DNA from: Paramagnetospirillum kuznetsovii
Lineage (GTDB): Bacteria; Pseudomonadota; Alphaproteobacteria; Rhodospirillales; Magnetospirillaceae
Assembly (NCBI RefSeq): GCF_003284725.1
Contig: NZ_PGTO01000007.1
Coordinates: 124,001-188,000, forward strand
Direction of reading: 5' to 3'
Length of the DNA: 64,000 bases
Numbering within the stretch: position 1 is the stretch's first letter; every line of letters starts with the position of its first letter. This document shows positions 13,113-40,513 of the stretch, piece by piece. Position numbers and translations under genes: made by a program. The notes beneath the pieces are model-generated. The model did no database searches. It had not been told where the DNA came from and saw only the letters and a list, made by a program, of their open reading frames with translations.

Positions 13113-13844
13113 TCAAGTCAGCGCGAACCGGCGCCACCAGGCCTGGGGCGGCGGCGCGGGCAGGATGACCGAGCGCAGGCCCTTGGCGGCGAGGCCTTCC
13201 AGCAGCAGCCGCATCAGGGTGACGGTGACCGCCGGTTTGAAGGCGTGGCCGGGACGCTCGTTGATGGGCTGGTCATGCATCAGGATGATGCCGCCGGGCA
13301 AGCGGGGATCGCTCATCAGACGCTCCACCTCGCGGCGGCATTCCGACTCCACGTCTTCCGGCTTGGCGCAGCGGGTGGAGATCATGTGGTCCTCGGTGCT
13401 TAGGGACCAATGGACCACGGCGCAGCCGGGCTGCCATGCCGCCAGGGTGCGGTGGACGCGGGCATTGCGCCAGCCGCCGTTATAGGGCAGCCGCACCAGA
13501 TAGGGCGACGGCGTCGGGCGATGCCGGGCCAGCAGCGCCTCGCAGCGCGCCATGTCCTCGGTCAGGCGCTCAGGCGCCTCGCGGTCGAGGCGGATATGGT
13601 CCCAGCCATGGGCATAGACGGCATGGCCGCGCCGTACCGTCTCGGCCACCAGATCATCGGCGGCCACGGCGCGACAGCCGCTCATGAAGAATGTGGCCTT
13701 GGCACCGAAACGGTCCAGCAGGTCCAGCATCTCGGGCATGGAATCGGGCATGGGGGCGTCGTCCACCGTGATGGCGACGCTGGCGGGATCCATCAATTGC
13801 CGCATGGCCGGAAGCCAATGCCCCAGTGACCAGGAAATCCTCAC
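13113..13844 (-). CDS. Polysaccharide deacetylase (NodB homology) family protein
   Basis: About 243 residues from the GTG at 13844, preceded by AGGG six bases away. The catalytic-domain motifs are SVAITVDDAPMPDS (the Asp pair of motif 1), YAHGWDHIRLD, a degenerate form of the His-x-x-x-His metal motif with H-x3-H spacing, and RLPYNGGW (motif 3). Family 4 carbohydrate esterases remove N- or O-acetyl groups from polysaccharides. The motif 1 spelling VDDAP rather than TFDDG is unusual but is seen in divergent members. No signal peptide is visible, so a cytoplasmic or precursor-level substrate is possible. Confidence 0.78.
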   Translation of the reverse strand: MRISWSLGHWLPAMRQLMDPASVAITVDDAPMPDSMPEMLDLLDRFGAKATFFMSGCRAVAADDLVAETVRRGHAVYAHGWDHIRLDREAPERLTEDMARCEALLARHRPTPSPYLVRLPYNGGWRNARVHRTLAAWQPGCAVVHWSLSTEDHMISTRCAKPEDVESECRREVERLMSDPRLPGGIILMHDQPINERPGHAFKPAVTVTLMRLLLEGLAAKGLRSVILPAPPPQAWWRRFALT

Positions 13845-13910
13845 GCCAAGCCCTTTTCCCAAAACCTTTTCATGAAAAGCGCGGCATGGTGCCACGCGGC
13901 GGGCGTCCCA

Positions 13911-24161: not shown

Positions 24162-25166
24162 TCAGCTGTTTTCCAGGCCGTTTGGTTCGTAGACCACGAT
24201 CTTGCTGCCGGAATTGTCGATGTTGAAATCCACATGGATCAGGGACTTCAGCCGCTCCCTGACCTTGGCCTGTAGCTCCGGCTTCACGTAGAACAGCACG
24301 AAGCCGCCGCCTCCGGCACCCAGCAGCTTGCCGCCGATCGCCCCGGCATCCATGGCGGCCTGATAGATCTCGTCGATTTCCGGGGTGGTGACGGCGTCGG
24401 CCAGTTCCCGCTTCAGCCGCCAACTGTCGTGCAGCAAGCGGCCCAGGTCGTCGAGCTGGCGCCCGTCGCTGCCCATGATGGCGACCGCTTCGTCCACCAT
24501 GGCGACCATCTTGTGGACATGGGCCTCGCGGTTGGCCAGATTGGCGATCTGCTTGGCGGCGATCTTGTCGGCGTAGCGGGAAAAGCCGGTGAAGAACAGC
24601 ATCAGCGAGCCCAGCATGGCGCGGCGGCGCTCCACCGGAATGATCAGCGGCACCACGTCGAAGGTGTCGTCGCGCAGGAAGGTGATGCGATTCATTCCGC
24701 CATAAGCGGCCCAGACCTGATCTTGCGAGCCCACATTCTCGCCGATGACATTCTGCTCGATGCGGATGGCTTCCTGGGCCAACTGCTTCTTGGTGGCCAT
24801 CCTGCCCTGCTTGGCCAGCAGGGTGTTGATCAGCCCGACGGTGAAGGAGGACGAGGAGCCCATGCCGGAACGGGCGGGCAGATCGCCGTCGTGATGAATC
24901 TCGACGCCCGACGACACCCCCATTTCCGTCAGCACGGCGCGAACCGCCGGATGTTGGATATCGGCGATGTCATCGACGGTTTCCACCTTGGAATAGGCGA
25001 TGCGATGCTTGTGCTCGAAGAAGGGCGGCAGGGTGCGCAGCGTGATGTAGCAGTATTTGTCGATGGTGAAGCCCACCACCGCGCCGCCATGCTGGCGGAA
25101 CCATGCCGGATAGTCGGACCCGCCGCCGAACAGTGAAACGCGGAAGGGGGTGCGGCTGATGATCAT
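24162..25166 (-). CDS. hddA: HddA-like sugar kinase (D-glycero-D-manno-heptose 7-phosphate kinase type, GHMP family)
   Basis: 334 residues from the ATG at 25166, which overlaps the stop of the nucleotidyltransferase gene (ATGA). N-terminal MIISRTPFRVSLFGGGSDYP, the ATP loop PARSGMGSSSSFTVGLINTL and C-terminal KLLGAGGGGFVLFYV are GHMP kinase motifs 1-3. HddA kinases make heptose 1,7-bisphosphate on the way to GDP-D-glycero-alpha-D-manno-heptose. Pairing with an HddC-like gene supports this call; an alternative is a kinase for another sugar phosphate. It is the last gene of the ten-gene operon. GmhA and GmhB are not in the window. Confidence 0.78.
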   Translation of the reverse strand: MIISRTPFRVSLFGGGSDYPAWFRQHGGAVVGFTIDKYCYITLRTLPPFFEHKHRIAYSKVETVDDIADIQHPAVRAVLTEMGVSSGVEIHHDGDLPARSGMGSSSSFTVGLINTLLAKQGRMATKKQLAQEAIRIEQNVIGENVGSQDQVWAAYGGMNRITFLRDDTFDVVPLIIPVERRRAMLGSLMLFFTGFSRYADKIAAKQIANLANREAHVHKMVAMVDEAVAIMGSDGRQLDDLGRLLHDSWRLKRELADAVTTPEIDEIYQAAMDAGAIGGKLLGAGGGGFVLFYVKPELQAKVRERLKSLIHVDFNIDNSGSKIVVYEPNGLENS

Positions 25167-25924
25167 CCCGGTGTCTTTCCTTTGGCCGCGATCGCATCGT
25201 GTGGCAGCACGTTCCCCGCTTCGGCCAAGCTTTCGGGAGTGCCGATATCGATGAAGGCGGCGCCCTCGGCGCGCCAACCGAAAATCCAGCCCGGCGGCAA
25301 CTGCGCCAGGAAATCGCGTTCCAGCGACGGCCCGGTCTCGGCGGCCAGACGGTCCAGCGCCGGACGCGACAACAGGGCGGCGCCGCCGTTGATCCAGCCC
25401 GGCCCCGCCAGTGTCGGATCCTTCTCGGCGAAGCGGGTGACTTGGCCGTCGGCGGCGATCTCCACCCGACCATAGCGTGAAACCTCGGCGACGGCGACAC
25501 ACAACAGCGATACCGCGCGGCCAGAACGACGATGCTCGGCGAGGAATTGGGCGAAATCGGCTTCCAGCCAGGTGTCGCCGTTCATGACCATGACCGGGTC
25601 GCCGACAAGCCGGGGCATGACGTGGCGCAGCGCGCCGCCGGTCCCCAAGGGAGCCGGTTCCGCCACCGCCAGAACCTGCAGCGGCAGGTCGCGTCCGTCA
25701 AGGTGAGCCCTCACCTGATCGGCGCCCACGCCCAGGGAAAGCACCACGCGCCCGGCGCCCAGGGCGGCCAGGTGGTCCAGCAGGTGATCGAGGAAGGGAC
25801 GGCCGTTGATGGGGGCCAGCACTTTCGGGATGTCGCCGAGAACGCTCCGGATGCGGGTTCCCAAACCACCGGCCAGCACCACCACGTCGATGCCGCCCAG
25901 TCCGTTGTCGCCGCTTTCGGTCAT
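25163..25924 (-). CDS. hddC: HddC-like sugar-1-phosphate nucleotidyltransferase
   Basis: 253 residues from the ATG at 25924, overlapping the GT2 stop as TGATG. IDVVVLAGGLGTRIRSVLGD is the nucleotidyltransferase signature, followed by IPKVLAPINGRPFLDHLL, VMNGDTWLEADF (metal-binding Asp) and AFIDIGTPES. It matches the group containing D-glycero-alpha-D-manno-heptose 1-phosphate guanylyltransferase. Substrate assignment rests on the adjacent HddA-like kinase and is not proven by sequence reading. Confidence 0.77.
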   Translation of the reverse strand: MTESGDNGLGGIDVVVLAGGLGTRIRSVLGDIPKVLAPINGRPFLDHLLDHLAALGAGRVVLSLGVGADQVRAHLDGRDLPLQVLAVAEPAPLGTGGALRHVMPRLVGDPVMVMNGDTWLEADFAQFLAEHRRSGRAVSLLCVAVAEVSRYGRVEIAADGQVTRFAEKDPTLAGPGWINGGAALLSRPALDRLAAETGPSLERDFLAQLPPGWIFGWRAEGAAFIDIGTPESLAEAGNVLPHDAIAAKGKTPG

Positions 25925-26871
25925 CACGGCCCCATGACGGCGCGGTCCGGCACCAGCGCGACGCCCTCGGCCTCGGCGATGATCCAGCGCGGACGGCCCC
26001 GCACGTCCTTGTAGACCCGGATCACGTAAAGACCGGTGGCGCCGACGGCCAGCATCAGGCTGCCCCACAAGAAAAAGGCCAGGGAAGCGAACAGCCAGCC
26101 GCTGCCGGCGAACAGTCCGATCAGCAGCAGCAGGACCGACAGGGCCAAACCGCACAGTCCGGCCCAATTGACCATGTAGATGGGCAGAAACGAGAACGAG
26201 GTGACGCCCGCCACCATGGTCTTGACCGCATTACGGTGAAGGCCGGAGAACTTGCTTTCGCCGCAATGGCGCGGTTGGCGTTCGTAATCGACGAAGGTCT
26301 GATCGAACCCCATCCACACCGCCAGTCCACGGATATAGGGGTCGTGTTCGCGCAAGCTCAGCATGTGCTGGGCGGCCCGGCGCGACAACAGCTTGAAGTC
26401 GCCCGACTCGATGGGCATCTGCCCGCGCGAGGTCCAGTTGATAACCTCGTAGGCGCGGCGCGTCAGCCACATGCGCAGGGGGTCTTCGCCGTGGCGGACG
26501 CTGCGCCTTGTGTGGACCACGTCGTGTCCGGCCCGCCAATGTTCGATCAAGGTGGGCAGCAGCTCGGGCGGGTCTTGAAGATCGCAGTCCATATAGATCA
26601 TGGCGTCGCCGGTGGCGGCGGCAAGGCCCGCCAGCACGCCCTCGGACGGCCCGGCGCGCCGGGCGGTGGTGATGATCTTCACCCGCGGATCCTTGGCACG
26701 GGCTTCGACCAGGATCTGGCGTGAACGGTCGGTGGAGCAGTCATTGACGAAGATGAACTCAAAGCCTTCCGGACGCCCGTCGGCCATCAGCGCCAGCCGC
26801 CGGATCAGTTCCGGCAGATTGTCTTCCTCGTTGCGGAACGAGAGGATGATGGAGACTGCGTCTTGGCTCAT
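25924..26871 (-). CDS. GtrB/CsbB-like family 2 glycosyltransferase with two C-terminal membrane helices
   Basis: The 315-residue protein has a GT-A domain (VSIILSFRNEEDNLPELIRRL, IFVNDCSTDRS, MIYMDCDLQDPPELLP with the DCDLQDPPE donor site). Two membrane helices follow, near residues 235-260 and 265-290. This is the layout of GtrB, CsbB and DPM1-like enzymes that load a sugar onto undecaprenyl phosphate at the cytoplasmic face. With the YfhO-like membrane protein two genes upstream, it could form part of a lipid-carrier glycosylation system. Confidence 0.87.
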   Translation of the reverse strand: MSQDAVSIILSFRNEEDNLPELIRRLALMADGRPEGFEFIFVNDCSTDRSRQILVEARAKDPRVKIITTARRAGPSEGVLAGLAAATGDAMIYMDCDLQDPPELLPTLIEHWRAGHDVVHTRRSVRHGEDPLRMWLTRRAYEVINWTSRGQMPIESGDFKLLSRRAAQHMLSLREHDPYIRGLAVWMGFDQTFVDYERQPRHCGESKFSGLHRNAVKTMVAGVTSFSFLPIYMVNWAGLCGLALSVLLLLIGLFAGSGWLFASLAFFLWGSLMLAVGATGLYVIRVYKDVRGRPRWIIAEAEGVALVPDRAVMGP

Positions 26872-26881
26872 GATTCCGCCC

Positions 26882-27598
26882 TCACCGTGGTTTCCAGAAC
26901 CACAACTCGCGGAAGAACTGGAAGTAATAGGCGGCTCCCCAGCGAAGAATCTGGAGTTTGCGCTCGCCGCCGATACGGGGCGGCTCGCCCACGCCGATCT
27001 CGCCGATCCGCATCTTGGCCTTGGCGGCGCGGACCGACATGACCGGCTCCCAACTGATGATGGTTCCGAACAACCGTTCGGGCAGAAGATAGGTTTCGTC
27101 CTTGTCCAGATCCAGTCGGGCGATCAGGTCGCGGCGGAACGCCCGGTAGATCACCATGGCATCGGTATAGCGGGCGCCGTGCAGAAGATTAACGGTGCGG
27201 GTGAATAGCCAGTTGCCGAACCCCGTGATGACATCGTCATCCTGGCTTGATGTGCCATCGCAATAGCGCGATCCGATGACAAGGTCATATCCCTGCCGCA
27301 TCTTGTCGATCAGCGCGGGGATAAATTCCGGCGCGCAATTCCCGTCAGGGCTGATGGTGATGACCATATCGCCGGAGATCAATGGCATGGCCTCCAGATA
27401 GGCAAAGCGGATGCCCCGGCGTTTCTGGACGTATACCTCGTAGCCGTTTTCGCGGCACCATTCGATGGTCCCATCGGTTGAACCGCCATCCAGGACAAGA
27501 ATCTGGCTTGCCCATTCCCGCTTGATCTGGGGCAGGATGGCACGCACGCCATCAATCTCGTTCAGGGTCAGGGCGACGATGGAAACAGTCATACACAA
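26882..27598 (-). CDS. Soluble family 2 glycosyltransferase
   Basis: The 238-residue protein begins VSIVALTLNEIDGVRAILPQ and has QILVLDGGSTDGTIEWCREN and ISPDGNCAPEFIPALI in the donor site, where an SPDG segment stands in place of a plain DxD. No membrane helix is visible, unlike the other GT2 in the operon. The start could be ATG at 27598 or the in-frame ATG two codons later (27592); no clear ribosome-binding site decides. It sits ten bases or so after the YfhO-like gene. Confidence 0.82.
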   Translation of the reverse strand: MCMTVSIVALTLNEIDGVRAILPQIKREWASQILVLDGGSTDGTIEWCRENGYEVYVQKRRGIRFAYLEAMPLISGDMVITISPDGNCAPEFIPALIDKMRQGYDLVIGSRYCDGTSSQDDDVITGFGNWLFTRTVNLLHGARYTDAMVIYRAFRRDLIARLDLDKDETYLLPERLFGTIISWEPVMSVRAAKAKMRIGEIGVGEPPRIGGERKLQILRWGAAYYFQFFRELWFWKPR

Positions 27599-27607
27599 GA
27601 AGCTTTC

Positions 27608-29731
27608 TTACGGGGAAAGAAGAGAGTTACCTGCATGGGAAACAGCCTGAACCCAAGGCAAATAAGATGGGACGTAAGTGAAGACAACACGGTGATTCCC
27701 CTTTTCCAGTGCGATCCCCCAGAAGGTGTGATCGGCCGGAAAAAGAGCAGTGGGAACGTCGTCAACACTGGCCTTCCAATATCGTGAAAAGGTATTCGTG
27801 ACAACCAGAACCTGTCGTCCATCGACGCTGATATCCAACTCAATCCGATCGCTTGAATAGACCCTTGGGGTAATTTTTCCGGGTGTCGGAGTTGCGTCCA
27901 CCGCCAATCCTGGGGGCAATTCATCGCGTCTGGCGAACAAGGTTTCCCTCAGGATTTCCACTGGAGCTTGAGCCATGGCCTCGACGGTAGCGCGGTCGTT
28001 ATCGAATGCGCGGATATTTCCAACGGTAAAAAAACGGGGGAGGGCCAGGTCATTGCGGTAGACATAAAGCCATTGTCGTCCGGAGAGATTCTCCGTCAAG
28101 GAGACCATTACCTTCTCGCGCAGGGACAACCCGCCCCAGGGTTTCGGGGCCCGTTCCACCTCCACTAGGCCGGGGCCGGATAGCGGCTCGCGCGAGACGA
28201 AATAACGGACATTGGCCAGGGACAGCAGATTCATGCGGTACAGCCGGTCCATGGGGCGGACGGCATAGCTTTCCGCCGTCCGGGTCCCCGATGTGACCAA
28301 ATTAGGCCGCTCGCTCCGGAATTGGGGCCAGCCCCCATCCCGCTCCAGGAGATCCTTCATGTCGGGCGACACCGCTTCCGGCCCGCCTTCCTGGGCGATC
28401 CAGGGTTCCATGATGGCACTCCAGAATTCGAAATGCCGCCGCGGTCCCGCCGGCATATCCCCGGACTCCGTCTCCAGACCGTAGGCGTTAAGATGAGCCG
28501 GATATAGAAAAATGGGTTCCACTCGGCTGGGCCACGGATCCTGGGCGACCCGCTGAGCCAGGGCGCGCAGGACCGGGCTTTCGAAATTGCGGACGTAATT
28601 CCCGTTGGACAGCCAGTCGAGAGTCAGGTTGCGATACTTTTGGACGCCGGTGGACACGGTCATGGCGGCGATGATCGCCACCGTCATCGCCCCGCCGCCA
28701 ATGGCGGGAAGGGAACGGGAAAGATATCTGATGCCGATGGCCATGGTCACAGCCAGTTCCGGCAAGATCATATAGCCCATAATCTTAACGTAGGAAAAGG
28801 ACAGAACCAGTGCCGACAGGGGGCCATCATAGCTGGAAACGAAGGTGCGGGAGAATAGGAGCGCCAGAACAGCCGCAGTCGGAAGAAGTATATATGCGGC
28901 GCTGTTCCTGCGGATCAGGAAGACGCCGACCGGTAGGCCCAAATGAATCAACAGGAATTCCACATGGAACGAGGACAGAGTCCCGATGATTTCCGTAAGG
29001 ACCGTCGTAGCGGTGTAGTGCTTCATGCCACGGGTGTAATAAAACGCCGACTCATTCAGGTGGGCCGACAGGGAAAAGGCCTCATTGATCCGAATGAGTG
29101 GGATGGCACAGAACAGGAAGATAATGATCCAGTCCGTCCGTGATGTCCTCCGCTCCACTACGGCAAACCACAGTACCAGGGCAAGTGAGAAATATTGCAG
29201 GACATCCGACGGGAACGGCACCCCAACGGTCACCAGCGCACTGGCCAGCGCGACCAAACCGCGGAGGACCGAATATTTAGCATCCAAATAACGACTGATG
29301 GCCAGCAGCACTACCGGCAATAGAGCCAAGTTGATGTTAACCAGAAAGACCGAGGTGGCGCACGCACCGTAGGCCATGGCTGCCAGGGTAGCCGGCATGG
29401 GTTCCGCCATCTGGTTGCGGATCAGGCGGTACATGCACCACGTTCCGCCGATCAGAGATGCTGTGATCAATACCGGATAGCTGAACCGGATCGGAATGCC
29501 TCCGAACAGTATTTGACTGATCAGGGAGGCCGATCCGGTTTGGGCCAGATCGGCCCCCCCCCTAATCAAGGGACTCCAGGCCTGCCCTATCGTCTCCAGG
29601 GCCGGCAAATGCATGTATAGCTCACTGGTATCGTAGAGGGGGAAGTAAGAGTACTTTGCCAAAACAAAATACTCGAATGATATCCAGAGCATCCAAAGTA
29701 TTAATATAGGGACGTTCCTGCAGCGGATCAT
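27608..29731 (-). CDS. Large polytopic membrane protein, YfhO/GT-C glycosyltransferase-like
   Basis: The 707-residue chain has about ten to twelve hydrophobic segments in residues 8-370. A soluble part follows, ending in a domain with WKASVDDVPTALFPADHTF, GIALEKGNHRVVFTYVP and a final hydrophobic stretch. That C-terminal pattern is typical of the YfhO group, in which GT-C enzymes use undecaprenyl-phosphate sugars outside the membrane. An acidic loop after the first helix (LYDTSELY) could hold the catalytic Asp/Glu. The DNA is clearly less GC-rich than its neighbours (32/60 and 24/60 G+C in two sampled lines), hinting at separate origin. The assignment is to fold class only. Confidence 0.62.
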   Translation of the reverse strand: MIRCRNVPILILWMLWISFEYFVLAKYSYFPLYDTSELYMHLPALETIGQAWSPLIRGGADLAQTGSASLISQILFGGIPIRFSYPVLITASLIGGTWCMYRLIRNQMAEPMPATLAAMAYGACATSVFLVNINLALLPVVLLAISRYLDAKYSVLRGLVALASALVTVGVPFPSDVLQYFSLALVLWFAVVERRTSRTDWIIIFLFCAIPLIRINEAFSLSAHLNESAFYYTRGMKHYTATTVLTEIIGTLSSFHVEFLLIHLGLPVGVFLIRRNSAAYILLPTAAVLALLFSRTFVSSYDGPLSALVLSFSYVKIMGYMILPELAVTMAIGIRYLSRSLPAIGGGAMTVAIIAAMTVSTGVQKYRNLTLDWLSNGNYVRNFESPVLRALAQRVAQDPWPSRVEPIFLYPAHLNAYGLETESGDMPAGPRRHFEFWSAIMEPWIAQEGGPEAVSPDMKDLLERDGGWPQFRSERPNLVTSGTRTAESYAVRPMDRLYRMNLLSLANVRYFVSREPLSGPGLVEVERAPKPWGGLSLREKVMVSLTENLSGRQWLYVYRNDLALPRFFTVGNIRAFDNDRATVEAMAQAPVEILRETLFARRDELPPGLAVDATPTPGKITPRVYSSDRIELDISVDGRQVLVVTNTFSRYWKASVDDVPTALFPADHTFWGIALEKGNHRVVFTYVPSYLPWVQAVSHAGNSLLSP

Positions 29732-31227
29732 TTAGCCCCCATCTCCTCGACGATCTTGCGCGCCAGGCGATGCTCGGCCATGTCCTCGATATGCTTGCGG
29801 GTGTCCCAGCCGAAGCGTTGGGCCACCATGCCGAGATAGCGGGGATCGGCGAAGTATTCGTGGAAGGCGTCGTCGCGGAACTTCAGCACCTGGGCCGCCG
29901 AGCAATGCTCGGTGGGCAGCGGCTTGCAGTCGTAGGAATGCTGGGAGAATCCGGCCCAGCCGTCGGGCAGCGCCCAGCCGTTCTCCACCGCCTGGGTATA
30001 GAGGCCCGATCCGGGATAGGCCATGGCGGAATAGAAATTGGCGAACTCGCAGTTCAATTCCTTGGCCAGGTCCAGGGTTTCGCGCATGGTCGCCACCGTA
30101 TCGTCGGGCAGGCCGAAGATGTAGTTGCCGATGACGCAGATTCCCGCCTTCTGGATATCGCGGACGATGCCGACGATGTCCTCGTATTTCAGCGCCTTGT
30201 CGGCGCCGTCGCGCACATGCTTCGAGCCCGATTCGATGCCCAGCGCCAGCCAGCGGATACCGGCCTTGCGCAATTTGGCCAGCATGGCGGGCTTGACGGT
30301 GTCGACGCGGGCATAAGCCCAGAAATTCAGCTCGTCGGAATAGCCCAGCTCGATCAGCCCGTCGCAGATGGCGGTGACGTGGCGGTCGTTGAGCACGAAC
30401 ATCTCGTCGATGATCTTGAAGGTCTTGACGCCGTAGGTGCGATATAGCCGGTCCACTTCGGCCACCACCTGGACGGGCGAGCGCATGCGATAGCGGTTGG
30501 CGTCGAAGGGCGCGTTGATGCAGCAGAAGCTGCACTTATAGGGGCAGCCCAGCGAGGTGTAGATGCTGGCATAGGGCATGCGCGCCCCCAGATCGCCGAA
30601 GCACTGCCAGTTATGGGCGCGGTATTTCTCCATGGGCAGCAGATGCCAGACATTGCCGTGCAGATCGGCGTCCAGATCACTGATCAGCGGCGCCGACATA
30701 TTGACCCGGATTTCGTCCTCGCCGTCGCGCCAGACCAGACCGGCCACCTCGGTGGGGTCGGTCTCGGCACCCAGTTCCAGCCAGTCCAGCAACTGCACCA
30801 CCGTGGCCGGTCCCTCGCCCTTGCAGGCGAAGTCCACCTGCTCTTCGGCCAGGGTGCGCTCGGGCAGGGCCGAGACATGGCCGCCGACGATGATGATGGG
30901 AATTTCCGGCGCCACGGCCTTGATGGCGGCGCAGGATTCGCCCGCCGCCACCATCTGCTGGGTCGAGGCCGAGGGCTGGTGGCCGAACACCACCATGCCC
31001 ACCAGCACCGGATTCAACGCCTTGACCCGTTCGGCCACCGAGGCGGGGCCCATGCCCTCGGCCTCGGAATCCACGATCACCACGCTCTTGCCCCGGTCGA
31101 TGGCGTAACCGGCGATCAGGCGGCACCACAGCGGCGGCTCGATGGCCGTCAGCTCGTTGCCGAGCTGCTGATAGATGCGCTCGCGGCCGCCCGGATTGAC
31201 CAGGACGAGATCGGGGCGCTGGGACAT
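29728..31227 (-). CDS. B12-binding domain radical SAM enzyme
   Basis: 499 residues. Residues 1-150 form a cobalamin-binding-like Rossmann domain (LVLVNPGG, VIVDSEAEGMG, IPIIIVGGHVSALPE); a classical DxHxxG motif is not obvious. The radical SAM core has its cluster Cys near residues 228, 232 and 235 in SLGCPYKCSFCC, followed by FKIIDEMFVLN and WLALGIESGSKHVRDGA. Class B radical SAM enzymes of this type do C-methylations, ring changes or other hard transformations. In a sugar operon it probably modifies a sugar or a lipid carrier, but no substrate can be named. Its stop overlaps the next start. Confidence 0.87.
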   Translation of the reverse strand: MSQRPDLVLVNPGGRERIYQQLGNELTAIEPPLWCRLIAGYAIDRGKSVVIVDSEAEGMGPASVAERVKALNPVLVGMVVFGHQPSASTQQMVAAGESCAAIKAVAPEIPIIIVGGHVSALPERTLAEEQVDFACKGEGPATVVQLLDWLELGAETDPTEVAGLVWRDGEDEIRVNMSAPLISDLDADLHGNVWHLLPMEKYRAHNWQCFGDLGARMPYASIYTSLGCPYKCSFCCINAPFDANRYRMRSPVQVVAEVDRLYRTYGVKTFKIIDEMFVLNDRHVTAICDGLIELGYSDELNFWAYARVDTVKPAMLAKLRKAGIRWLALGIESGSKHVRDGADKALKYEDIVGIVRDIQKAGICVIGNYIFGLPDDTVATMRETLDLAKELNCEFANFYSAMAYPGSGLYTQAVENGWALPDGWAGFSQHSYDCKPLPTEHCSAAQVLKFRDDAFHEYFADPRYLGMVAQRFGWDTRKHIEDMAEHRLARKIVEEMGAK

Positions 31228-32165
31228 CAGACGTTTCCGTAGATGCTGTTCTTGATCATGGTGAAGCCCTTGATCAGATCCTGGATGCCGAGATCGAGGG
31301 AGTGAGCGGGCTTGAAGCCGGTCTTCTCGATCTTCTCGTTGGACACGATGTAGTCGCGCTTATCGGGATCCTCGCCGATGGGGGCCTCGACGAAGACGAA
31401 TTTGGGCAGGTGCTTCTGGATCACCTGACACAGTTCCCACTTGGACAAATTGGCGTCGGACAGGCCCACATTGTAGGGCTGGTTCTTCATGGATTCGAAA
31501 TTTTCCAAGCCGTGCATGAAGGCGCGGGTCACGTCGCGAACATGAATGTAGTTGCGCTTGAAATGGGGCTCGAACAGCACCACGGCGCGGTCGGTGACGG
31601 CGCGGTAGACGAAGTCGTTGACCAGAAGGTCGATGCGCATGCGCGGCGCCATGCCGAACACGGTGGCGAGACGGAAGCTGATGGCGTTGCCGCGCTCCAT
31701 CAGCGCCTGCTCCACTTCCACCTTGTGGACGCCGTAGAGCGAGATGGGGCGCAGCGGAGTTTCTTCCGTGCAGAACTTGCCCTGCTCGCCGACGCCGTAG
31801 CCGGAATTGGTGATGGGCATCAAGACGCGCTGGTTGGGCGAGAGCATCTTGAACAGCATCTTCTGGGCGTCGAGATTGGTGGTGGTGGCGCCGATGGGGT
31901 CCATGGCGCAGAGCGGCGCGCCCACCAGCGCGGCCAGCGGAACCACCACGTCCTTGTCCTTGATCAGGCCCTTCATCAGCGTCTCGTCGCGGCAATCGCC
32001 CTTGACCACGCTGAAATTGGGGTTCGAGCAGCAATGGCCCAGCGAGTGCTGCTTGAACATGAAATTGTCCAGCACCGCGACCTTATGCCCGGCCGCCAGC
32101 AGTTCGGGAACCATGATGGAGCCGAGATAGCCCGCGCCGCCGGTCACCAGGATGTTGTAGGTCAT
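31227..32165 (-). CDS. NAD-dependent sugar epimerase/dehydratase (extended SDR)
   Basis: 312 residues with NILVTGGAGYLGSIMVPEL for NAD binding, a Ser/Thr in ITNSGYGVGEQG, and the catalytic Tyr-x3-Lys as SLYGVHKVE. RNYIHVRDVTRAFMHGL and QPYNVGLSDANLSKWELC belong to the nucleotide-sugar side. It could be the 4,6-dehydratase, an epimerase or a 4-reductase for the operon's sugar. It overlaps the radical SAM gene by one base. The 118 bases between it and the ColD-like gene are filled by a GC-rich hairpin repeat. Confidence 0.87.
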   Translation of the reverse strand: MTYNILVTGGAGYLGSIMVPELLAAGHKVAVLDNFMFKQHSLGHCCSNPNFSVVKGDCRDETLMKGLIKDKDVVVPLAALVGAPLCAMDPIGATTTNLDAQKMLFKMLSPNQRVLMPITNSGYGVGEQGKFCTEETPLRPISLYGVHKVEVEQALMERGNAISFRLATVFGMAPRMRIDLLVNDFVYRAVTDRAVVLFEPHFKRNYIHVRDVTRAFMHGLENFESMKNQPYNVGLSDANLSKWELCQVIQKHLPKFVFVEAPIGEDPDKRDYIVSNEKIEKTGFKPAHSLDLGIQDLIKGFTMIKNSIYGNV

Positions 32166-32197
32166 TGTGTGGTCCCTCTCTGTATTATCGTTTCAGT

Positions 32198-32281
32198 CCC
32201 CCCACCCCATCCCTCCCCACCAGGGGGAGGGGGGTGATCCCGTATCTCCCCTCCCCTCGATGGGGAGGGGCCGGGGTGGGG
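32198..32281. repeat. Nested GC-rich inverted repeat inside the sugar operon
   Basis: An outer pair CCCCACCCC (32200-32208) / GGGGTGGGG (32273-32281) encloses two hairpins: CCCTCCCC/GGGGAGGG (32211-32231) and CCCCTCCCC/GGGGAGGGG (32248-32270). No T-run follows on either strand. It may be an mRNA-stabilising or attenuating structure between the ColD-like and SDR genes. Confidence 0.8.
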
Positions 32282-32283
32282 TG

Positions 32284-33456
32284 CTACCCGCAGGCCTTGT
32301 CCAAGACCTCGCGCAGACGGGTGATCTGCTCCGTCAGGTCGAAGGGATGGTTGCCGACGAAGAAGCCGTGGTCGTGGGCGAGGTCGGCATTGGGCACCGC
32401 ACCGCCCACCACCTCGTAGTCGTAGTGCTTGATCACGTCGTGGCGCAGGAAATTGCCGCCGGTGATGATGCGATAGCCGATATCGGCGTCCTTCAAGGCG
32501 GCGAAGACCTTGTTGCGGTCGATCTTCCTGGCCGGATTGAGGATGATGGTGAACGAGAAGGCCGAGCTCTTGCCGTTTTCCTTTTGGATGATGAAGCGGT
32601 CGTCATTGCCCATCAGCTTTTGGAACAGCGCCAGATTCTTGCGGCGCTGGGCCGTGAAGCCGGGCAGCTTCTTGATCTGCTCGCGGCCGATGGCGGCCTC
32701 GATTTCCAGCGGCCGCACATTGTAGCCGGGCAGCACGAAGCGATAGGCCTCGAAGAAGTCGTTGCCCTTCTTCTGGAACACCGGGCTGTCGTTGGGCAGG
32801 TCGCGGGTCCAGCCATGGGCGCGCAGGGACCGGCTTAAGTGCGCCAGCTCGGTGTCATCGGTGAGGATGATGCCGCCTTCCATGGTGGAGATGTGGTGCG
32901 AGAAGAAGAAGCTGAAGGTGTTGAGATGGCCGAAGGTGCCGCACTTCTTGCCGCCCAGTTCGGCGTCCATGCTCTCGCAATTGTCTTCCAGCAGATACAG
33001 GCCGTGCTTGTCGGCGAAGGCGCGGGTCACGTCCAGCGCCGCCGGATTGCCGAGAATGGAAACCGCGACGATGGCCCGCGTCTTGGGGGTCAGCGCCTTT
33101 TCCAACTGGGCGACGTCCATGTTGAGCGTCTGCAGGTCCACGTCGACGAAGCGCAGCTTCAGCCCGTATTGCTGCAGCGGGTGGTAGGTGGTGGCCCAAC
33201 TGATCACCGGAACGATGACCTCGTCGCCGCGCTGAAGGGGGCGCTCGCTCTTATAGGCCAGGGCGGCCACCGCGATCAGATTGGCCGAAGAGCCGGAATT
33301 GACCATGATGCCGTGCTTCACGCCGTGATAGGCGGCGAATTCCTCCTCGAACGCCTTGACGTTGGCGCCCATGGTGTAGAAGCCGGAATCGATGACGGCC
33401 TTGGCGGCGGCGGCCTCTTCAGGGCCCCAGGTCGGGGCGGCGAGCTCGTAGAACAT
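32284..33456 (-). CDS. DegT/DnrJ/EryC1-fold PLP enzyme with His replacing the Schiff-base Lys, ColD-like sugar 3-dehydratase
   Basis: The 390-residue protein has the DegT fold: VNSGSSANLIAVAAL, LLEDNCESMDAELGGK and the active-site strand FFFSHHISTMEGG. The family's PLP-binding Lys (pattern K-x-I-T-T-x-E-G-G) is replaced by His at about residue 187. This substitution is the hallmark of GDP-4-keto-6-deoxymannose 3-dehydratase ColD (His188) and of the CDP-sugar enzyme E1. E1 has a 2Fe-2S Cys cluster after this point; none is seen here, so the ColD type fits better. It would remove the C3 hydroxyl of a 4-keto-6-deoxy nucleotide sugar, giving a 3,6-dideoxy-4-keto sugar. Confidence 0.85.
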   Translation of the reverse strand: MFYELAAPTWGPEEAAAAKAVIDSGFYTMGANVKAFEEEFAAYHGVKHGIMVNSGSSANLIAVAALAYKSERPLQRGDEVIVPVISWATTYHPLQQYGLKLRFVDVDLQTLNMDVAQLEKALTPKTRAIVAVSILGNPAALDVTRAFADKHGLYLLEDNCESMDAELGGKKCGTFGHLNTFSFFFSHHISTMEGGIILTDDTELAHLSRSLRAHGWTRDLPNDSPVFQKKGNDFFEAYRFVLPGYNVRPLEIEAAIGREQIKKLPGFTAQRRKNLALFQKLMGNDDRFIIQKENGKSSAFSFTIILNPARKIDRNKVFAALKDADIGYRIITGGNFLRHDVIKHYDYEVVGGAVPNADLAHDHGFFVGNHPFDLTEQITRLREVLDKACG

Positions 33457-33477
33457 GATCCAAGCAATCCTGATTGT

Positions 33478-34437
33478 TTAAGTCTTAAGAAAGGCCCGCA
33501 CTCGCGCCTCGGCCACCAGGGGGCCGATTCCCACCTGCTCGTGCAGGGTGGCGCGGTCGCCCAGCTCGAAACGATAGGCCGGTTCCACCCCGATGCCCAG
33601 GGTCGGGCGCTCCAACCCCTTGCGGCTCAACAGATCGCGGGCCAGGGAATCGACGCCGCCCCGGCCGCTGAAGCCCTCTTCCATGCTGATCAGCGCGGGC
33701 CTCGCGGCCAGCAGCGCGGCCAGCGCGTCCTGGTCGAAGCCCGACAGGTCAAACAGGTCGATGACGGCGAGGCTGATGCCGTCCTGGGCCAGCTTGTCCG
33801 CCACTTTCAGCGCGGTATGGACCATATAGCCGGTGGCAACCACGCTGGCGTCGGACCCATCGCGCAACTGGGTGAAGCCCTTGTTCAGGTCGGGGGCGGT
33901 CTCGCCATGGAGGACCGGCAGGTTCTGGGCGTCGAAGCGCAGGTATTTCAGACCCCGCTGTCCGGCGCAGCGGTCGAACAGCGCCCCGGCGGTGACGTGA
34001 TCGGCGGGCGACAGCACCGAGAACCCCGGCAGGGTCCGCATCAGGGTGATGTCCTCGTAGCACTGGTGGGTCGGTCCCGACACCACGTAGCTGTAGCCTG
34101 CTCCGACACCCACCAGGGTGACATTCATGGGCCGCACCGTGGACAGCAGGGCCAGATTGGTGCGGCACTGTTCATAGCAGCGCATGGTGATGAAGGGCGC
34201 TATGGCGTAGGCGAAGACCTTGAACCCTTCCAGCGCCAGCCCGGCGGACACATTGATCAGATTCTGCTCGGCGATGCCCACATTGATGAAGCGCTTGGGG
34301 AAGTCGCCGCGGATGCGGTCCAGGGTGGGGGCGCCGAAATCGGCGGCGACGAAGAACAGGCGTTCGTCCGTCGCCATGTTCTCCCAGATGCGCTCAAGCA
34401 GGGCATCGCGCATGGCCCTTGGCTGAAGGGCGGTCAT
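33478..34437 (-). CDS. Transketolase-like, C-terminal (pyrimidine-binding) subunit
   Basis: The 319-residue protein contains FINVGIAEQNLINVSAGLALEG, with the Glu that activates the ThDP ring, and GPTHQCYEDITLMRTLPG. This covers the pyrimidine-binding and C-terminal domains of transketolase or DXP synthase. The matching N-terminal half is the adjacent upstream gene, with a four-base overlap, so the active enzyme should be a heteromer. Split transketolases in sugar clusters have been linked to two-carbon transfer or branched-chain sugars; that role here is inference. Confidence 0.88.
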   Translation of the reverse strand: MTALQPRAMRDALLERIWENMATDERLFFVAADFGAPTLDRIRGDFPKRFINVGIAEQNLINVSAGLALEGFKVFAYAIAPFITMRCYEQCRTNLALLSTVRPMNVTLVGVGAGYSYVVSGPTHQCYEDITLMRTLPGFSVLSPADHVTAGALFDRCAGQRGLKYLRFDAQNLPVLHGETAPDLNKGFTQLRDGSDASVVATGYMVHTALKVADKLAQDGISLAVIDLFDLSGFDQDALAALLAARPALISMEEGFSGRGGVDSLARDLLSRKGLERPTLGIGVEPAYRFELGDRATLHEQVGIGPLVAEARVRAFLKT

Positions 34438-35261
34438 TGCTGGGGCTCCCGCAGCAGGGAGTCGATGGTCTCGAATTTGGGCGACATCACATGGGACAGG
34501 GGGGCGTTTTCCAGGCCGGGGACGCCCCGCCCCTTGATGGTGCGGGCCACCAGCGCCTTAGGCCGGCCGTCGCGGGTCTTCTTCAGATGCGACAGCGCCG
34601 CGTGAACCGCCATGACATCGTGGCCGTCCACCTCCAGGCAGTCCCAGCCGAAGCCGCCCAGGCGGTCGGCAAGCCTGCCCAGCGAGTTGATCTCGTCGGT
34701 GAAGCCCAGCATGCAGATGCGGTTGTCGTCGACGATCAGGGTCAGGTTGTCCAGCCGGTTCTGAGCGGCGAACATGATGGCCTCCCAGTTGGCGCCTTCA
34801 TGCAGTTCGCCGTCGCCGGTCACCACGAAGACGTCCTGGGCGCCGCCCTTGACCTTGAGCCCCAGCGCCATGCCGCTGGCCACGCCCAAGCCATGGCCCA
34901 GCGAGCCGTTGACCGTCTCGTAGCCGGGGATCACCGGATCGGGAATACCGCCCAGGAAACTGCCGGCCTGGCACACCCGCTCCAGTTCTTCTGCCGGGAA
35001 ATAGCCCAGGTCGGCCAGGATCGGATACATGCAGATGGAGCCGTGGCCCTTGCTGATGATGCAGCGGTCGCGTTCTTCCCAGTCGGTGCGCTGGGGATCG
35101 AAGCGCAGCAGGCCGCCGTAATAGAGCGAGACGAAGATCTCGACGGGCGACAGCGACGACGCCAAGCGGACTTCCGGAGCCCGGCGATAGACCTCCAGGG
35201 TCTGGCGCCAGACCCAGTCCGCCTTGGCCCGCAAATCAACGTTAACCCCTGAAGCTTCCAA
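34434..35261 (-). CDS. Transketolase-like, N-terminal (diphosphate-binding) subunit
   Basis: 275 residues from a TTG at 35261, with AAGGGGG a few bases upstream; the longer frame would run through non-coding repeat DNA. The ThDP-binding part is GDGELHEGANWEAIMFAAQN, preceded by SKGHGSICMYPIL and GSLGHGLGVASGMALG. It lacks the pyrimidine and C-terminal domains, supplied by the next gene. It is the first gene of the ten-gene operon running to 24162. The start is my least certain point; no stronger start codon lies near. Confidence 0.86.
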   Translation of the reverse strand: MEASGVNVDLRAKADWVWRQTLEVYRRAPEVRLASSLSPVEIFVSLYYGGLLRFDPQRTDWEERDRCIISKGHGSICMYPILADLGYFPAEELERVCQAGSFLGGIPDPVIPGYETVNGSLGHGLGVASGMALGLKVKGGAQDVFVVTGDGELHEGANWEAIMFAAQNRLDNLTLIVDDNRICMLGFTDEINSLGRLADRLGGFGWDCLEVDGHDVMAVHAALSHLKKTRDGRPKALVARTIKGRGVPGLENAPLSHVMSPKFETIDSLLREPQQ

Positions 35262-35673: not shown

Positions 35674-35889
35674 ATGCGCGTCAATCGCGAATTTCTTGAT
35701 CCCGATCTGGCCGGTTTTCTCCAGACGGCGGAAGAATCTGCGATCGCCGTCGCCCTTGCCGGGGGCGAAGCTGCTCGCGTCAAGGCATTGCGTGCCGCCT
35801 TGGACGACGGTGTCGCCAGCGGCGAGTCTGTCGATGCCGGTCCGGTGTTCCAGCGCCTTCTCGCCAAGTATGGCGCAGCCGATCGTTGA
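35674..35889 (+). CDS. ParD-like antitoxin
   Basis: 71 residues. The part AARVKALRAALDDGVASGESVDAGPVFQRLLAKY matches the C-terminal toxin-binding region of ParD-like antitoxins (DDG..SGES/D). The N-terminal DNA-binding part is short and atypical: the usual RHH start is not seen, so the protein may have lost or diverged in DNA binding. It overlaps the toxin gene by one base (TGATG). Confidence 0.75.
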   Translation: MRVNREFLDPDLAGFLQTAEESAIAVALAGGEAARVKALRAALDDGVASGESVDAGPVFQRLLAKYGAADR

Positions 35890-36173
35890 TGGCGCGAGTT
35901 CGCTTTCGTCCCCGCGCCATCGCCGACCTGGAACAGATCGGCGACTTCATCGCGACCGACAATCCCGCTGCCGCCGCAACTTTCATCGCTGAAATCATGC
36001 GGTGCTGCGAGCTTCTGGCGGGCTCTCCCATGATCGGTCGGGACCGTGCGGCGCTTCGCTCCGGGACGCGCAGCTTTCCCGTTGGACACTACATCGTCTT
36101 TTACAGCCCAGCCTCCGACGGAATCGAGGTTGTTCGCGTTCTTCACGGTGCACGGGATGTTCAAAGCCTTTAA
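35889..36173 (+). CDS. ParE-like toxin
   Basis: 94 residues with VRFRPRAIADLEQIGDFIATDNPAAAATFI, then PMIGRDRAALRSGTRSFPVGHYIVFY and the closing VVRVLHGARDV, the full ParE/RelE-superfamily pattern. The ATG at 35889 shares a base with the antitoxin stop. The pair sits between the sugar operon and prfC. Confidence 0.87.
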   Translation: MARVRFRPRAIADLEQIGDFIATDNPAAAATFIAEIMRCCELLAGSPMIGRDRAALRSGTRSFPVGHYIVFYSPASDGIEVVRVLHGARDVQSL

Positions 36174-37902: not shown

Positions 37903-38688
37903 TTAACGGCGTGCCGCCAGCGCTTCTTCCCGCGTCTTGAATCCCAGTTCCAGCAGCAGCGGCGGTTCCAGCCCCGCTTCCGCCAAGGCGGCGCGGTCGG
38001 CCAGCACCTCGGCGGCGGTGCCGTGCCGCGTCACCCTGCCCCGGTTGAACAGCGCCACCTCGTCGGCGAAAGCCCAGGCCAGATCCACGTCATGGGTGGT
38101 GAAGACCAGGGTGGTGCCCGCCTCGGACAATGTCGCCAGGGCGTCCAGCAGCCGCCTGGCGCCTTGGTGGTCGAGGCCCGCCACCGGCTCGTCCAGCAAC
38201 AGCACCTCGGGCCGCATGGCCAAGGCTCCGGCGATGGCGACCCGCTTCTTCTGGCCGAACGACAGCATATGGGTGGCGCGGTCGGCCAGATCGCCGATGC
38301 CGAGCGCGTCCAAGGCTTCCGCGACCCGCTGGCGGGTTTCAGTCTCGTCGAGGCCGAGATTGAGCGGGCCGAACGAGACGTCTTCCGCCACCGTGGCGGC
38401 GAACAATTGGTCGTCGGGCTCTTGCATCACCAGCCCGACCCGCTTGCGCCAATCCGCCAGGGCCGCCCGTGAATAAGCGGCTTCGGCGCCGTCCAGCAGC
38501 ACCCTTCCGCCCGACGGCTTCAAACTGCCGTTGAGATGCAGCAGCAAGGTCGACTTGCCCGCCCCATTGGGGCCCAGCACCGCCAGCCTGCGCCCCCTTG
38601 CGACGGCGAGGTCGAGCCCGTCCAGGGCCTTGATGCCGCCGGGATAGGCGTAGTTCAGGGCTTGGGCGTCGAGGATCAGGCCAGCCAC
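37903..38688 (-). CDS. cbiO: Cobalt ECF transporter ATP-binding protein
   Basis: 261 residues from a GTG at 38688. Walker A is GPNGAGKSTLLLHLNG, the Q-loop VMQEPDDQLF, the signature MLSFGQKKRVAIAGAL and Walker B LLLDEPVAGLD. The LSFGQKKR signature and the QEPDDQLF segment are typical of CbiO. It energises uptake of Co2+ through CbiMNQ. Its start overlaps the end of cbiQ by 13 bases. Confidence 0.92.
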   Translation of the reverse strand: MAGLILDAQALNYAYPGGIKALDGLDLAVARGRRLAVLGPNGAGKSTLLLHLNGSLKPSGGRVLLDGAEAAYSRAALADWRKRVGLVMQEPDDQLFAATVAEDVSFGPLNLGLDETETRQRVAEALDALGIGDLADRATHMLSFGQKKRVAIAGALAMRPEVLLLDEPVAGLDHQGARRLLDALATLSEAGTTLVFTTHDVDLAWAFADEVALFNRGRVTRHGTAAEVLADRAALAEAGLEPPLLLELGFKTREEALAARR

Positions 38689-39410
38689 AGGCAGGCTCCC
38701 GCCAGGGCGGCTTCGCCCGCTAGGATCGCGGCCAGCATGGGCAGCGAGGCCTGCCGCCTTGGGCTCAACATGCGCAGCGTGCCGTCGAAGCCGCGCGCCG
38801 CCAGTCCCATCTCCAGCCGCCTCGCGCTGTCCATGGCACGGGGCAGCAGCAGGGCGATCAAAAGCCCCAGCGAGCGGATGGACCGCCGCCAGCCGTGCCA
38901 GCCCAGCCGCGCCTCTTGCGCCGTCTGGATGGCGGCGGCGGCATCGAGCAGCAGGAACAGGAACCGCCAGGTCAGCAGCATGATCTCGGCGATCTCGGCG
39001 GGCAGGCCCAGCCGTCGCATGCCCCGGATCAAATCCGGCGTCGGCGTGGTGGCGGCCAGCAGCAGCAGGCAGGCCACCGCCGCCCAGGCGCGCAGCATGA
39101 CCATGGCCGCCGCCTGTCCGTGGTCGGCGGCAAGACCGATGCCCTGCGGCCCCAGGTCAATGGCGATGGCGGCGGCGCCGGTCAGGATGAAGCCCATGGG
39201 CGCCGCGTTGAGCCGCAGCCAATCGGCAAGCCTTATGCGGGCGCCGATCAGGGCGGTGCCCCAGGCGGCCGCCAGCACCAGGGCCGCCCCCGGCCAGGGC
39301 GGAAGCGTCAGGGCGAGGGCCAGCAGGCCGAGGGCGAGCGCCGCCTTCTCGGCCAGCGCCCGGCCCCGCCATGGACTTGCCTGGGCCAGACGGTCGATGT
39401 GGAGACTCAT
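38676..39410 (-). CDS. cbiQ: Cobalt ECF transporter membrane (T) component
   Basis: 244 residues from the ATG at 39410 with about five or six membrane helices. The coupling motif appears as GLAARGFDG near the C-terminus, and LIRGMRRLGLPAEIAEIMLLTWRF is characteristic of CbiQ. It links the ATPase to the substrate-specific CbiMN. No good ribosome-binding site precedes the start; the gap before it is a dispersed palindromic repeat that separates it from cbiN. Confidence 0.9.
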   Translation of the reverse strand: MSLHIDRLAQASPWRGRALAEKAALALGLLALALTLPPWPGAALVLAAAWGTALIGARIRLADWLRLNAAPMGFILTGAAAIAIDLGPQGIGLAADHGQAAAMVMLRAWAAVACLLLLAATTPTPDLIRGMRRLGLPAEIAEIMLLTWRFLFLLLDAAAAIQTAQEARLGWHGWRRSIRSLGLLIALLLPRAMDSARRLEMGLAARGFDGTLRMLSPRRQASLPMLAAILAGEAALAGACLWLA

Positions 39411-39411
39411 G

Positions 39412-39485
39412 AGGAATGCGGCCGGGACGGCCGCGCTCCCGATTGTGGCGTCCGGGATCGGGGCGCGGGCATCCTGCCCGCATCC
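39412..39485. repeat. Dispersed GC-rich palindromic repeat, copy 2 (diverged), inside the cbi operon
   Basis: GCGGCCGGGACGGCCGCGCTCC is identical to the other copies, while the second half differs (GGGGCGCGGGCATCCTGCCCGC). It sits between cbiN and cbiQ, so it is transcribed with the operon and may affect relative expression. Confidence 0.75.
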
Positions 39486-39492
39486 TGTCGGC

Positions 39493-39765
39493 TCATTTGT
39501 CCCTGCGACCGTGCATCCGGCCGAGGACATAGCCCAGGATTCCAGCCCCGAAGGCAGCCTGCAGCGCGAACAGGGTGGCCTCGATTTCCTTGGTGGGGGC
39601 CCAGAACGGCTCGGTCCATTTCCGGTAATCGGGGTTGGACGCGGTGACCACCTCGCTGGCGGCGTCGTCGGTGCCGCCGAACTGGGCGGCCGGGTTGAGG
39701 ATCAGCGGCGCGGCGACGATCAGGGCCGCCATGCCCAGCAGCAGGGCGTTGCTCTTGGCGGTCAT
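39493..39765 (-). CDS. cbiN: Cobalt ECF transporter small subunit
   Basis: 90 residues from the ATG at 39765, overlapping the cbiM stop as ATGA. A first membrane helix ([16 protein letters not shown]), a periplasmic loop with [15 protein letters not shown] and [11 protein letters not shown], and a second helix ([18 protein letters not shown]) match CbiN. It assists CbiM in metal loading. Confidence 0.93.
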
Positions 39766-40415
39766 GCCTTTGCTCCCAGAATGCGAATATGGCCGCGTGC
39801 CGCCAGGGCGTTCATCACCACGATGGTGACCAATCCCTCGGCCACCGCCAGCGGCGCCTGGGTCACGGCGAAGATGCCCGCGAACTTGGCGAAGGATCCG
39901 GCGAAGCCGGTCTCGGCATCGGGGAAGGCCAGGGCCAATTGGGTCGAGGTCACCACATAGGTGGCCATATCGCCCAGGCAGGCCGACAGGAAGACAGCGA
40001 CGGAGGCGGGCAGGGCCAGCCGTCCCGCCAGCTTCCAGATGCCATAGGCGACCCAGGGACCGGCGATGGCCATGGAAAAGATATTGGCGCCCAGGGTGGT
40101 CAGGCCGCCATGGGCCAGCAGCAGGGCCTGGAACAGCAGGACGACGCTTCCCATCACCGCCATCACCGAGGGGCCGAACATCATGGCCCCCAGGCTGGTG
40201 CCGGTGGGATGCGAGCACGATCCGGTGACGCTGGGCAGCTTCAGGGCCGATAGCACGAAGGTGAAGCCGCCGGCCGCGGCCAGTTGCAGCCGTGCTTCCG
40301 GGTGTTCGGCGACGATGCGCTTCAGCCGCCGCGCGCCCATCACCACGAAGGGGGCGGAAATCACCGTCCAGGCAAGGGCATGCCCGGCGGGAAGAAAACC
40401 TTCCATGATATGCAT
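39762..40415 (-). CDS. cbiM: Cobalt ECF transporter substrate-specific component
   Basis: 217 residues from the ATG at 40415, beginning [16 protein letters not shown], where the N-terminal Met-His-Ile provides the metal-binding amino terminus in Cbi[21 protein letters not shown] with conserved His is also present. Several membrane helices follow. It is the first gene of cbiMNQO, preceded by a cobalamin riboswitch, so cobalt uptake falls when B12 is plentiful. Confidence 0.95.
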
Positions 40416-40513
40416 TTTGAACAGACTCCGTTCGTCGAGACCAAACGTCGTCGCGAAACGGAACACCAACCCACCGACTCACCCCGGCCGAACGGGCTCG
40501 CAACGACTCTCGC

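Follow-up and report, generated by a model that had tools for sequence, protein, structure and literature searches.

A ten-gene operon of Paramagnetospirillum kuznetsovii that may build and transfer a C4-branched 3-deoxy-heptose

Three superfamilies of thiamine diphosphate (ThDP) enzymes that branch sugars have been described, YerE-like enzymes in lipopolysaccharide and, in secondary metabolites, enzymes of the alpha-keto-acid-dehydrogenase type and split transketolases (TKs) (PMC12247030). In the yersiniose A pathway, as outlined in the same review, the substrate of the ThDP enzyme YerE is cytidine diphosphate (CDP)-3,6-dideoxy-4-keto-glucose, so that branching takes place on a 4-keto nucleotide sugar already deoxygenated at C3. 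A second precedent comes from Campylobacter jejuni, where Cj1427 and the HS:5 C3-dehydratase convert guanosine diphosphate (GDP)-heptose to GDP-D-glycero-3-deoxy-4-keto-heptose in vitro; the abstract of that paper lists GDP-3-deoxy-heptoses as 'novel GDP-heptose modifications' (PMC10680097). Here we describe an operon in a stretch of 64,000 nucleotides from Paramagnetospirillum kuznetsovii, referred to as the window (contig NZ_PGTO01000007.1, C67 in our numbering, positions 124001-188000; host genome 4.41 Mb). We judge it reasonably probable that this operon serves to make a 3-deoxy-heptose branched at C4, probably with nine carbons in all, and to transfer it. What appears to be new is the logic of yersiniose synthesis moved to GDP-heptose, with three kinds of ThDP enzyme predicted in one slot. 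A literature search, with most subscription journals outside its coverage, returned no report of a GDP-heptose branched by a ThDP enzyme.

Ten open reading frames (ORFs) occupy positions 24162-35261 of the window on the reverse strand, with overlaps or small gaps between neighbours. A preliminary description of this DNA had proposed a ten-gene operon of this layout and named its gene families; the coordinates confirm the former, and Pfam assignments agree with the latter. In the order of reading, the features are:

34434-35261, reverse strand: tktN, first gene of a split transketolase, encoding the N-terminal half that binds ThDP (Transketolase_N 114.9 bits)
33478-34437, reverse strand: tktC, second gene of this transketolase, encoding its C-terminal half (76 bits to Transket_pyr and 59 bits to Transketolase_C)
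32284-33456, reverse strand: colD, ColD-like pyridoxal phosphate (PLP) 3-dehydratase (ColD 2gms, 385 bits; His replaces the usual Lys)
32195-32285, no strand: hairpin repeat in the gap between colD and the next gene (two hairpins in the window copy)
31227-32165, reverse strand: short-chain dehydrogenase/reductase (SDR), likely a GDP-D-glycero-D-manno-heptose 4-dehydrogenase (6vo6, 391 bits)
29728-31227, reverse strand: B12-domain radical S-adenosylmethionine protein (rSAM; Radical_SAM and B12-binding Pfam domains above cut-off)
27608-29731, reverse strand: large protein with a YfhO-like C-terminus, possibly a membrane glycosyltransferase (YfhO 33.7 bits, residues 621-697 only)
26882-27592, reverse strand: GT2a glycosyltransferase (Glycos_transf_2, 49.9 bits)
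25924-26871, reverse strand: GT2b glycosyltransferase (Glycos_transf_2, 108 bits)
25163-25924, reverse strand: HddC-like sugar-1-phosphate guanylyltransferase (closest solved relatives 5xhw and 6jq8)
24162-25166, reverse strand: HddA-like heptose kinase of the GHMP family (closest solved relative 3k85, a heptose 1-phosphate kinase)

The two transketolase genes overlap by 4 bp, and their products are closest among solved structures to 6yak (164 bits; the N-terminal chain of another split enzyme of this type) and to 6yaj (116 bits), respectively. A TTG start is likely for tktN; its orthologue in locus L063 has V at that place.

In the proposed pathway, GDP-D-glycero-D-manno-heptose would be supplied by HddA and HddC together with GmhA- and GmhB-like proteins whose genes lie elsewhere, and the Cj1427-like SDR would oxidise it at C4. 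The ColD-like PLP enzyme would then remove the C3 oxygen to give GDP-3-deoxy-4-keto-heptose, and the split TK would add a two-carbon unit, by usual transketolase chemistry a hydroxyacetyl group, to the C4 ketone, leaving a tertiary alcohol. The rSAM would further modify the branched product, and GT2b and the membrane glycosyltransferase would use a lipid carrier to deliver the sugar to a glycan of the envelope. Homology, together with what homologues are reported to do in vitro, makes the steps as far as the 3-deoxy-4-keto-heptose likely; comparative genomics makes branching at C4 probable; the donor, the radical step and the transfer we infer.

The ColD-like protein was sought in 99 genomes, the host's own and those of relatives, and 21 of them carry it at an identity of at least 64% (23 hits), the next match standing at 49%. 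A scan of GTDB genomes with an alignment of these 23 proteins returned 259 relatives, of which the best 80 form the 80-locus set; flanks extend up to 10 kb per side, gene presence was scored by tblastn, and contig ends (short contigs of the L039 type) depress the counts. The nearest named relatives of the protein are those of Paramagnetospirillum marisnigri SP-1 and Magnetospirillum sp. SS-4. An SDR of at least 50% identity shares the locus with colD in 72 of the 80, hddA in 49, hddC in 40 and GT2b in nine. Five colD genomes were searched whole and all five carry hddA, which in P. marisnigri lies on a different contig from colD. No locus among the 80 has a YfhO-like match (tblastn E <= 1e-8). 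The operon is therefore not conserved in its full complement of ten genes, which was absent from every other locus examined. The conserved unit is a ThDP enzyme, colD and the SDR, often joined by hddA/hddC and rSAM. Co-occurrence of the operon's genes in other genomes, as envisaged earlier, is therefore found widely for this core and does not extend to the full set.

Evidence for the branching step comes from the slot immediately upstream of colD. ORF clustering over 89 loci followed a simple rule that missed some genes, and tblastn counts are used here for all but the SIS-domain family discussed below. Two frequent families were found upstream of colD, E1-alpha (E1_dh) and E1-beta (pyruvate dehydrogenase E1-beta-like; one member of each tested), together with a third, rarer family that is acetolactate-synthase-like. 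Adjacency was defined as same strand and within 800 bp upstream of colD, and two of the 80 loci with less than 1 kb upstream were left out (n = 78). A ThDP gene is adjacent in 63 of these 78 loci, as an E1 pair in 58, a split TK in three and a decarboxylase type (acetolactate-synthase-like) in two; at ten loci a ThDP match lies elsewhere in the flanks. The control, PseC aminotransferase (30 best matches; each flank 1.5 kb at most, in a few cases shortened by the end of the contig), has an adjacent ThDP gene in none of its 30 loci.

The E1 pair was also considered as part of a dehydrogenase complex. When the two E2 proteins of the host genome, which find each other as a positive control, served as tblastn queries (E <= 1e-8), no E2 match appeared in the 80 loci; this candidate role was rejected on that ground, and the E1 pair seems to be a free carboligase. 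In the ColD tree, where bootstrap support is not settled and the L056 row is a far outlier, the four rows with an adjacent TK (the window, L063, L064 and L065) require two label changes. L065, with a TK, and L066, with an E1 pair, are sisters (support 100/89), and both carry SDR, rSAM, GT2b, hddC and hddA downstream. Occupying the same slot in sister operons, the TK and the E1 pair look like enzymes doing the same job. A two-carbon extension had been among the earlier proposals, and this comparative evidence supports it as a ThDP-enzyme step.

The same core occurs in other settings. A plasmid search gave 13 records, four of them from Azospirillum at 76-78% identity, and the three records inspected each have the order E1a-E1b-colD (annotated by family only). 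On plasmids of Azospirillum lipoferum 4B and A. ramasamyi (L143 and L144), these three genes lie near mtnA, TPR genes and sulfotransferases, and one TPR gene of the A. lipoferum locus is annotated as GT41. The ColD-like protein is rare among the 391 genomes of the family to which L107 belongs, two of which carry it at an identity of at least 70%.

The residues of the split TK bear on its role. The alignment reference was the genome's canonical transketolase, a 675-aa frame on contig C69; positions are numbered, and roles assigned, after what we take to be those of E. coli TktA, and the poorly aligned S385 column was not counted. In the TKs of the window, of L063-L065 and of L131, the Asp and Asn of the ThDP site (GDG...N), the catalytic Glu, R358 and the His residues aligned with H66, H261 and H473 are conserved; R, I, G, S and A stand in place of H26, H100, H461, D469 and R520. 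The H461 change is common to all eleven split TKs compared; of these eleven, the window group alone has R at H26, I at H100 and A at R520. The operon TK thus appears to be without several residues that ordinary transketolases use for donor and sugar phosphates. In L040 (14641-17918) and L052 (10135-13376), rSAM, tktN and tktC are adjacent in that order and apart from colD, possibly as an rSAM-TK sub-module; the TKs of these two loci have Tyr at the H100 position.

Sedoheptulose 7-phosphate is a product of transketolase, and the split TK might merely supply it, the end product then being an unbranched 3-deoxy-heptose. The described GDP-heptose pathway does start from sedoheptulose 7-phosphate (PMC10680097). 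Yet neither an E1 pair nor an acetolactate-synthase-like enzyme, both found in the same slot, is expected to make this compound, and the sister operons with TK or E1 render a TK that merely feeds the pentose-phosphate pathway unlikely. With the full-length transketolase encoded elsewhere and the five substitutions listed above, supply of sedoheptulose 7-phosphate was rejected as the main role of the enzyme, and we hold this explanation to be very doubtful.

For a GDP-heptose as starting sugar, the relevant proteins are HddA, HddC and the SDR. The HddC-like protein reaches 113.8 bits in the NCBIfam model of HddC (cut-off 300) and 135.4 bits in the mannose-1-phosphate guanylyltransferase family (cut-off 440), and its relatives 5xhw and 6jq8 are described as '6-deoxy-D-mannoheptose pathway protein'; the HddA-like protein reaches 126 of 600 bits in the HddA model. 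Elsewhere in the genome there are GmhA-like genes with a SIS domain and one GmhB-like gene, of the histidinol-phosphatase type, that scores over its cut-off, and the SIS-domain family is present in six of the 89 clustered loci (one member checked by Pfam). The SDR matches 6vo6 end to end (residues 2-311 of 312); the entry is named 'putative sugar-nucleotide epimerase' and is presumably Campylobacter Cj1427. The S-H-H motif of the ColD-like protein aligns with that of ColD and occurs in all 90 rows of the tree set (88 by pattern, two as SHHV). These 90 rows retain the His that is Asn in entry 3b8x, presumably an H188N mutant. Both enzyme types of the Campylobacter reaction, a Cj1427-like SDR and a PLP 3-dehydratase, are thus adjacent in the window operon. 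The heptose origin of the sugar, its oxidation (at C4) and its deoxygenation at C3, all suggested previously, gain support from these homologies, from gene co-occurrence and, for the last two, from the reported Campylobacter precedent in vitro (PMC10680097).

The genome also encodes a GMD over cut-off (C67:48002-49021). The substrate of ColD itself is GDP-4-keto-6-deoxymannose, and a GDP-hexose might accordingly be the sugar concerned: the GMD product would be deoxygenated by ColD and branched by the ThDP enzyme to a colitose- or yersiniose-like hexose, with HddA and HddC serving another sugar. After GMD, however, a Cj1427-type 4-dehydrogenase would be needless, yet 72 of the 80 colD loci contain one, and hddA recurs in 49 loci and in all five whole genomes. 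From this gene context we argue for a heptose rather than a hexose as the substrate of the ColD-like enzyme; the hexose pathway seems unlikely.

The role of the rSAM within the proposed heptose pathway is less defined. Its C-x3-C-x2-C motif and a further Cys after it are invariant in 35 aligned sequences. It stays below the cut-off of each of the 25 NCBIfam families listed, and HpnJ (hopanoid-associated) scores highest among them (179.5 of 577.6 bits). Among solved structures, AprD4 is closest in sequence (67 bits) and also gives the best fold match (6fd2; Foldseek E 3.4e-21, TM 0.69) to an AF2 model with a pLDDT of 89. By the title of its entry, AprD4 is a 1,2-diol dehydratase that acts on an aminoglycoside. 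TsrM, MgmA and OxsB follow among the fold matches, the first two being methylases and the third a ring-contracting enzyme. Sequence and fold matches do not tell dehydration, methylation and ring closure apart, and C-methylation, put forward in the preliminary description, gains no specific support, since the nearest relative on both measures is a diol dehydratase and the methylases come next. Locus L066 has, at 13761-15164, a second B12-domain radical SAM gene between rSAM and GT2b, 24% like the first.

The carbon skeleton might instead be altered by the rSAM, for example through C-methylation, with the ThDP enzyme acting on another molecule. A B12-domain rSAM gene does belong to the operon, and methylases and a ring-contracting enzyme are among its fold matches. 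But 44 of the 80 loci have no rSAM match (contig ends included), against an adjacent ThDP gene in 63 of 78, and the diol dehydratase AprD4 is closest by both sequence and fold. We give this division of labour little credence and retain branching by the ThDP enzyme.

Transfer through a lipid carrier, also proposed earlier, is likewise tentative, the resemblance being at family level only. GT2b scores below cut-off in NCBIfam for PgfS (183 bits) and for the ArnC type (133 bits) and is perhaps a polyprenyl-phosphate sugar transferase. The YfhO-like protein has no NCBIfam match, and PADLOC returned nothing for it.

Several observations weigh against a C4-branched heptose. Five of the 78 loci have no ThDP gene in the examined flanks (tblastn). 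In a second set of 22 loci from relatives, which overlaps the 80-locus set, a ThDP gene is adjacent in only 12 (six E1, three TK, three decarboxylase type), elsewhere in eight and found in neither place in two, so the rate of adjacency is lower in the window's own order. Two of ten ColD relatives below 50% identity (L053-L062, an impure control) have an adjacent E1 pair, which indicates that the ThDP association is wider than this clade and not unique to it; four of the others have another ThDP hit in the flanks and four have none. The rSAM is found in only 36 of the 80 loci, tktN in seven and tktC in five. HddA and HddC both score below their NCBIfam cut-offs, although their nearest solved relatives in the PDB are nonetheless heptose enzymes, and with GMD in the genome GDP-4-keto-6-deoxymannose may also reach ColD. 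According to the review of sugar-branching enzymes, no split TK has yet been shown to accept a ketone (PMC12247030). A reductase for the new side-chain ketone is not evident in the operon.

These features also define how the operon compares with described systems. Yersiniose A is branched at C4. As in YerE-type systems, a 3-dehydratase gene is paired with a ThDP carboligase gene, the two being neighbours in the window as well as at 63 of the 78 loci. The window differs from the yersiniose A system, as the review presents it, in using GDP and a heptose, in its ColD-type 3-dehydratase, in having a split TK rather than a ThDP enzyme of the decarboxylase superfamily, and in showing no evident branch reductase. 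With the C. jejuni pathway (GmhA, HddA, GmhB, HddC, Cj1427 and the HS:5 C3-dehydratase), it shares the precursor steps and the types of C4-dehydrogenase and PLP 3-dehydratase; Campylobacter is described as epimerising and reducing next (PMC10680097), whereas in the window the SDR and 3-dehydratase genes stand side by side after a ThDP enzyme. The split TKs of miharamycin and amipurimycin synthesis are proposed to add a hydroxyacetyl group to a keto sugar, as here, but act in secondary metabolism, whereas the window's operon is proteobacterial and seems geared to a sugar of the envelope; the 13 split TKs covered by the review are given as all from Streptomycetes and none as characterised in vitro (PMC12247030).

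A parallel is found in bradyrhizose, a ten-carbon bicyclic sugar (PMC9912281). Mutants of Bradyrhizobium ORS285 tie an eleven-gene cluster with gdh to this O-antigen sugar, with a caveat of polar effects (PMC4743980); the word 'transketolase' occurs nowhere in the text of that paper. Both gdh primers match locus L209 exactly, inside one 332-aa SDR. Adjoining this SDR are tktN and tktC, together with SIS (GmhA-like), PfkB plus cytidylyltransferase (HldE-like), nucleotidyltransferase, SDR and zinc alcohol dehydrogenase genes, and the group is kept in L210-L212 at no less than 92% identity. The two operons are thus alike in combining a split TK with SDRs and heptose-type genes. They differ in that the TK halves are only about 40% and 29-32% alike to those of the window and in that the bradyrhizose TK has retained His at both H26 and H100. 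The 34.5 kb examined at the bradyrhizose locus gave no match to colD or rSAM, so only the TK and heptose-type genes are shared, and bradyrhizose was rejected as the same pathway. A split TK beside heptose-type genes thus occurs in the one operon of this kind that could be tied to a known higher-carbon sugar, as a parallel case; if branching by the window's TK is the right reading, the split TK is a candidate enzyme for a carbon-carbon bond of bradyrhizose. The window's genome holds a second split TK (G000:C11:78089-79866; L184:6090-7867), 51% and 43% identical to the bradyrhizose-operon halves; it adjoins a GMD-like SDR and a C-methyltransferase and is perhaps part of a second branched-sugar operon.

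Pseudomonas (now Trinickia) caryophylli is the source of another higher-carbon sugar, caryose. This 4,8-cyclo-3,9-dideoxy-nonose (PMC9671505) has nine carbons, is 3-deoxygenated and bears an extra carbon-carbon bond at C4; a heptose with two carbons added at C4 could give the same after ring closure. The split TK and the rSAM might then yield a carbocyclic, caryose-like sugar, the TK placing two carbons at C4 and the rSAM joining the branch to the heptose tail to close the carbon ring. We see only a slim chance of this, but, taken with the split TK of the bradyrhizose operon, it would amount to a general route to bicyclic bacterial sugars.

If branching of a GDP-heptose is the correct reading, GDP-3-deoxy-4-keto-heptose, so far only a test-tube product, would occur naturally as an intermediate in many bacteria, and a family of higher-carbon surface sugars would branch off from it. 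The three kinds of ThDP enzyme in the same slot would offer a natural experiment on donor choice. The operon would also provide a split TK with a definable ketone substrate, from a class that the 2025 review describes as without in-vitro characterisation (PMC12247030).

The remaining features lie within or beside the operon. The hairpin repeat noticed earlier is indeed present, in the 118 bp that separate colD from the SDR gene. Its 91-base stretch has 33 matches in the genome, the window copy counted; dispersed in this way, it is an interspersed element rather than part of the pathway, and a regulatory role there was rejected. Upstream of the operon and on the opposite strand lies a ParE-type toxin gene (35886-36173, forward strand). 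About 2.6 kb upstream of the operon, with its B12-domain rSAM gene, genes for an ABC ATPase, CbiQ and CbiM (cobalt uptake) occupy 37903-40469 on the reverse strand, possibly by coincidence.

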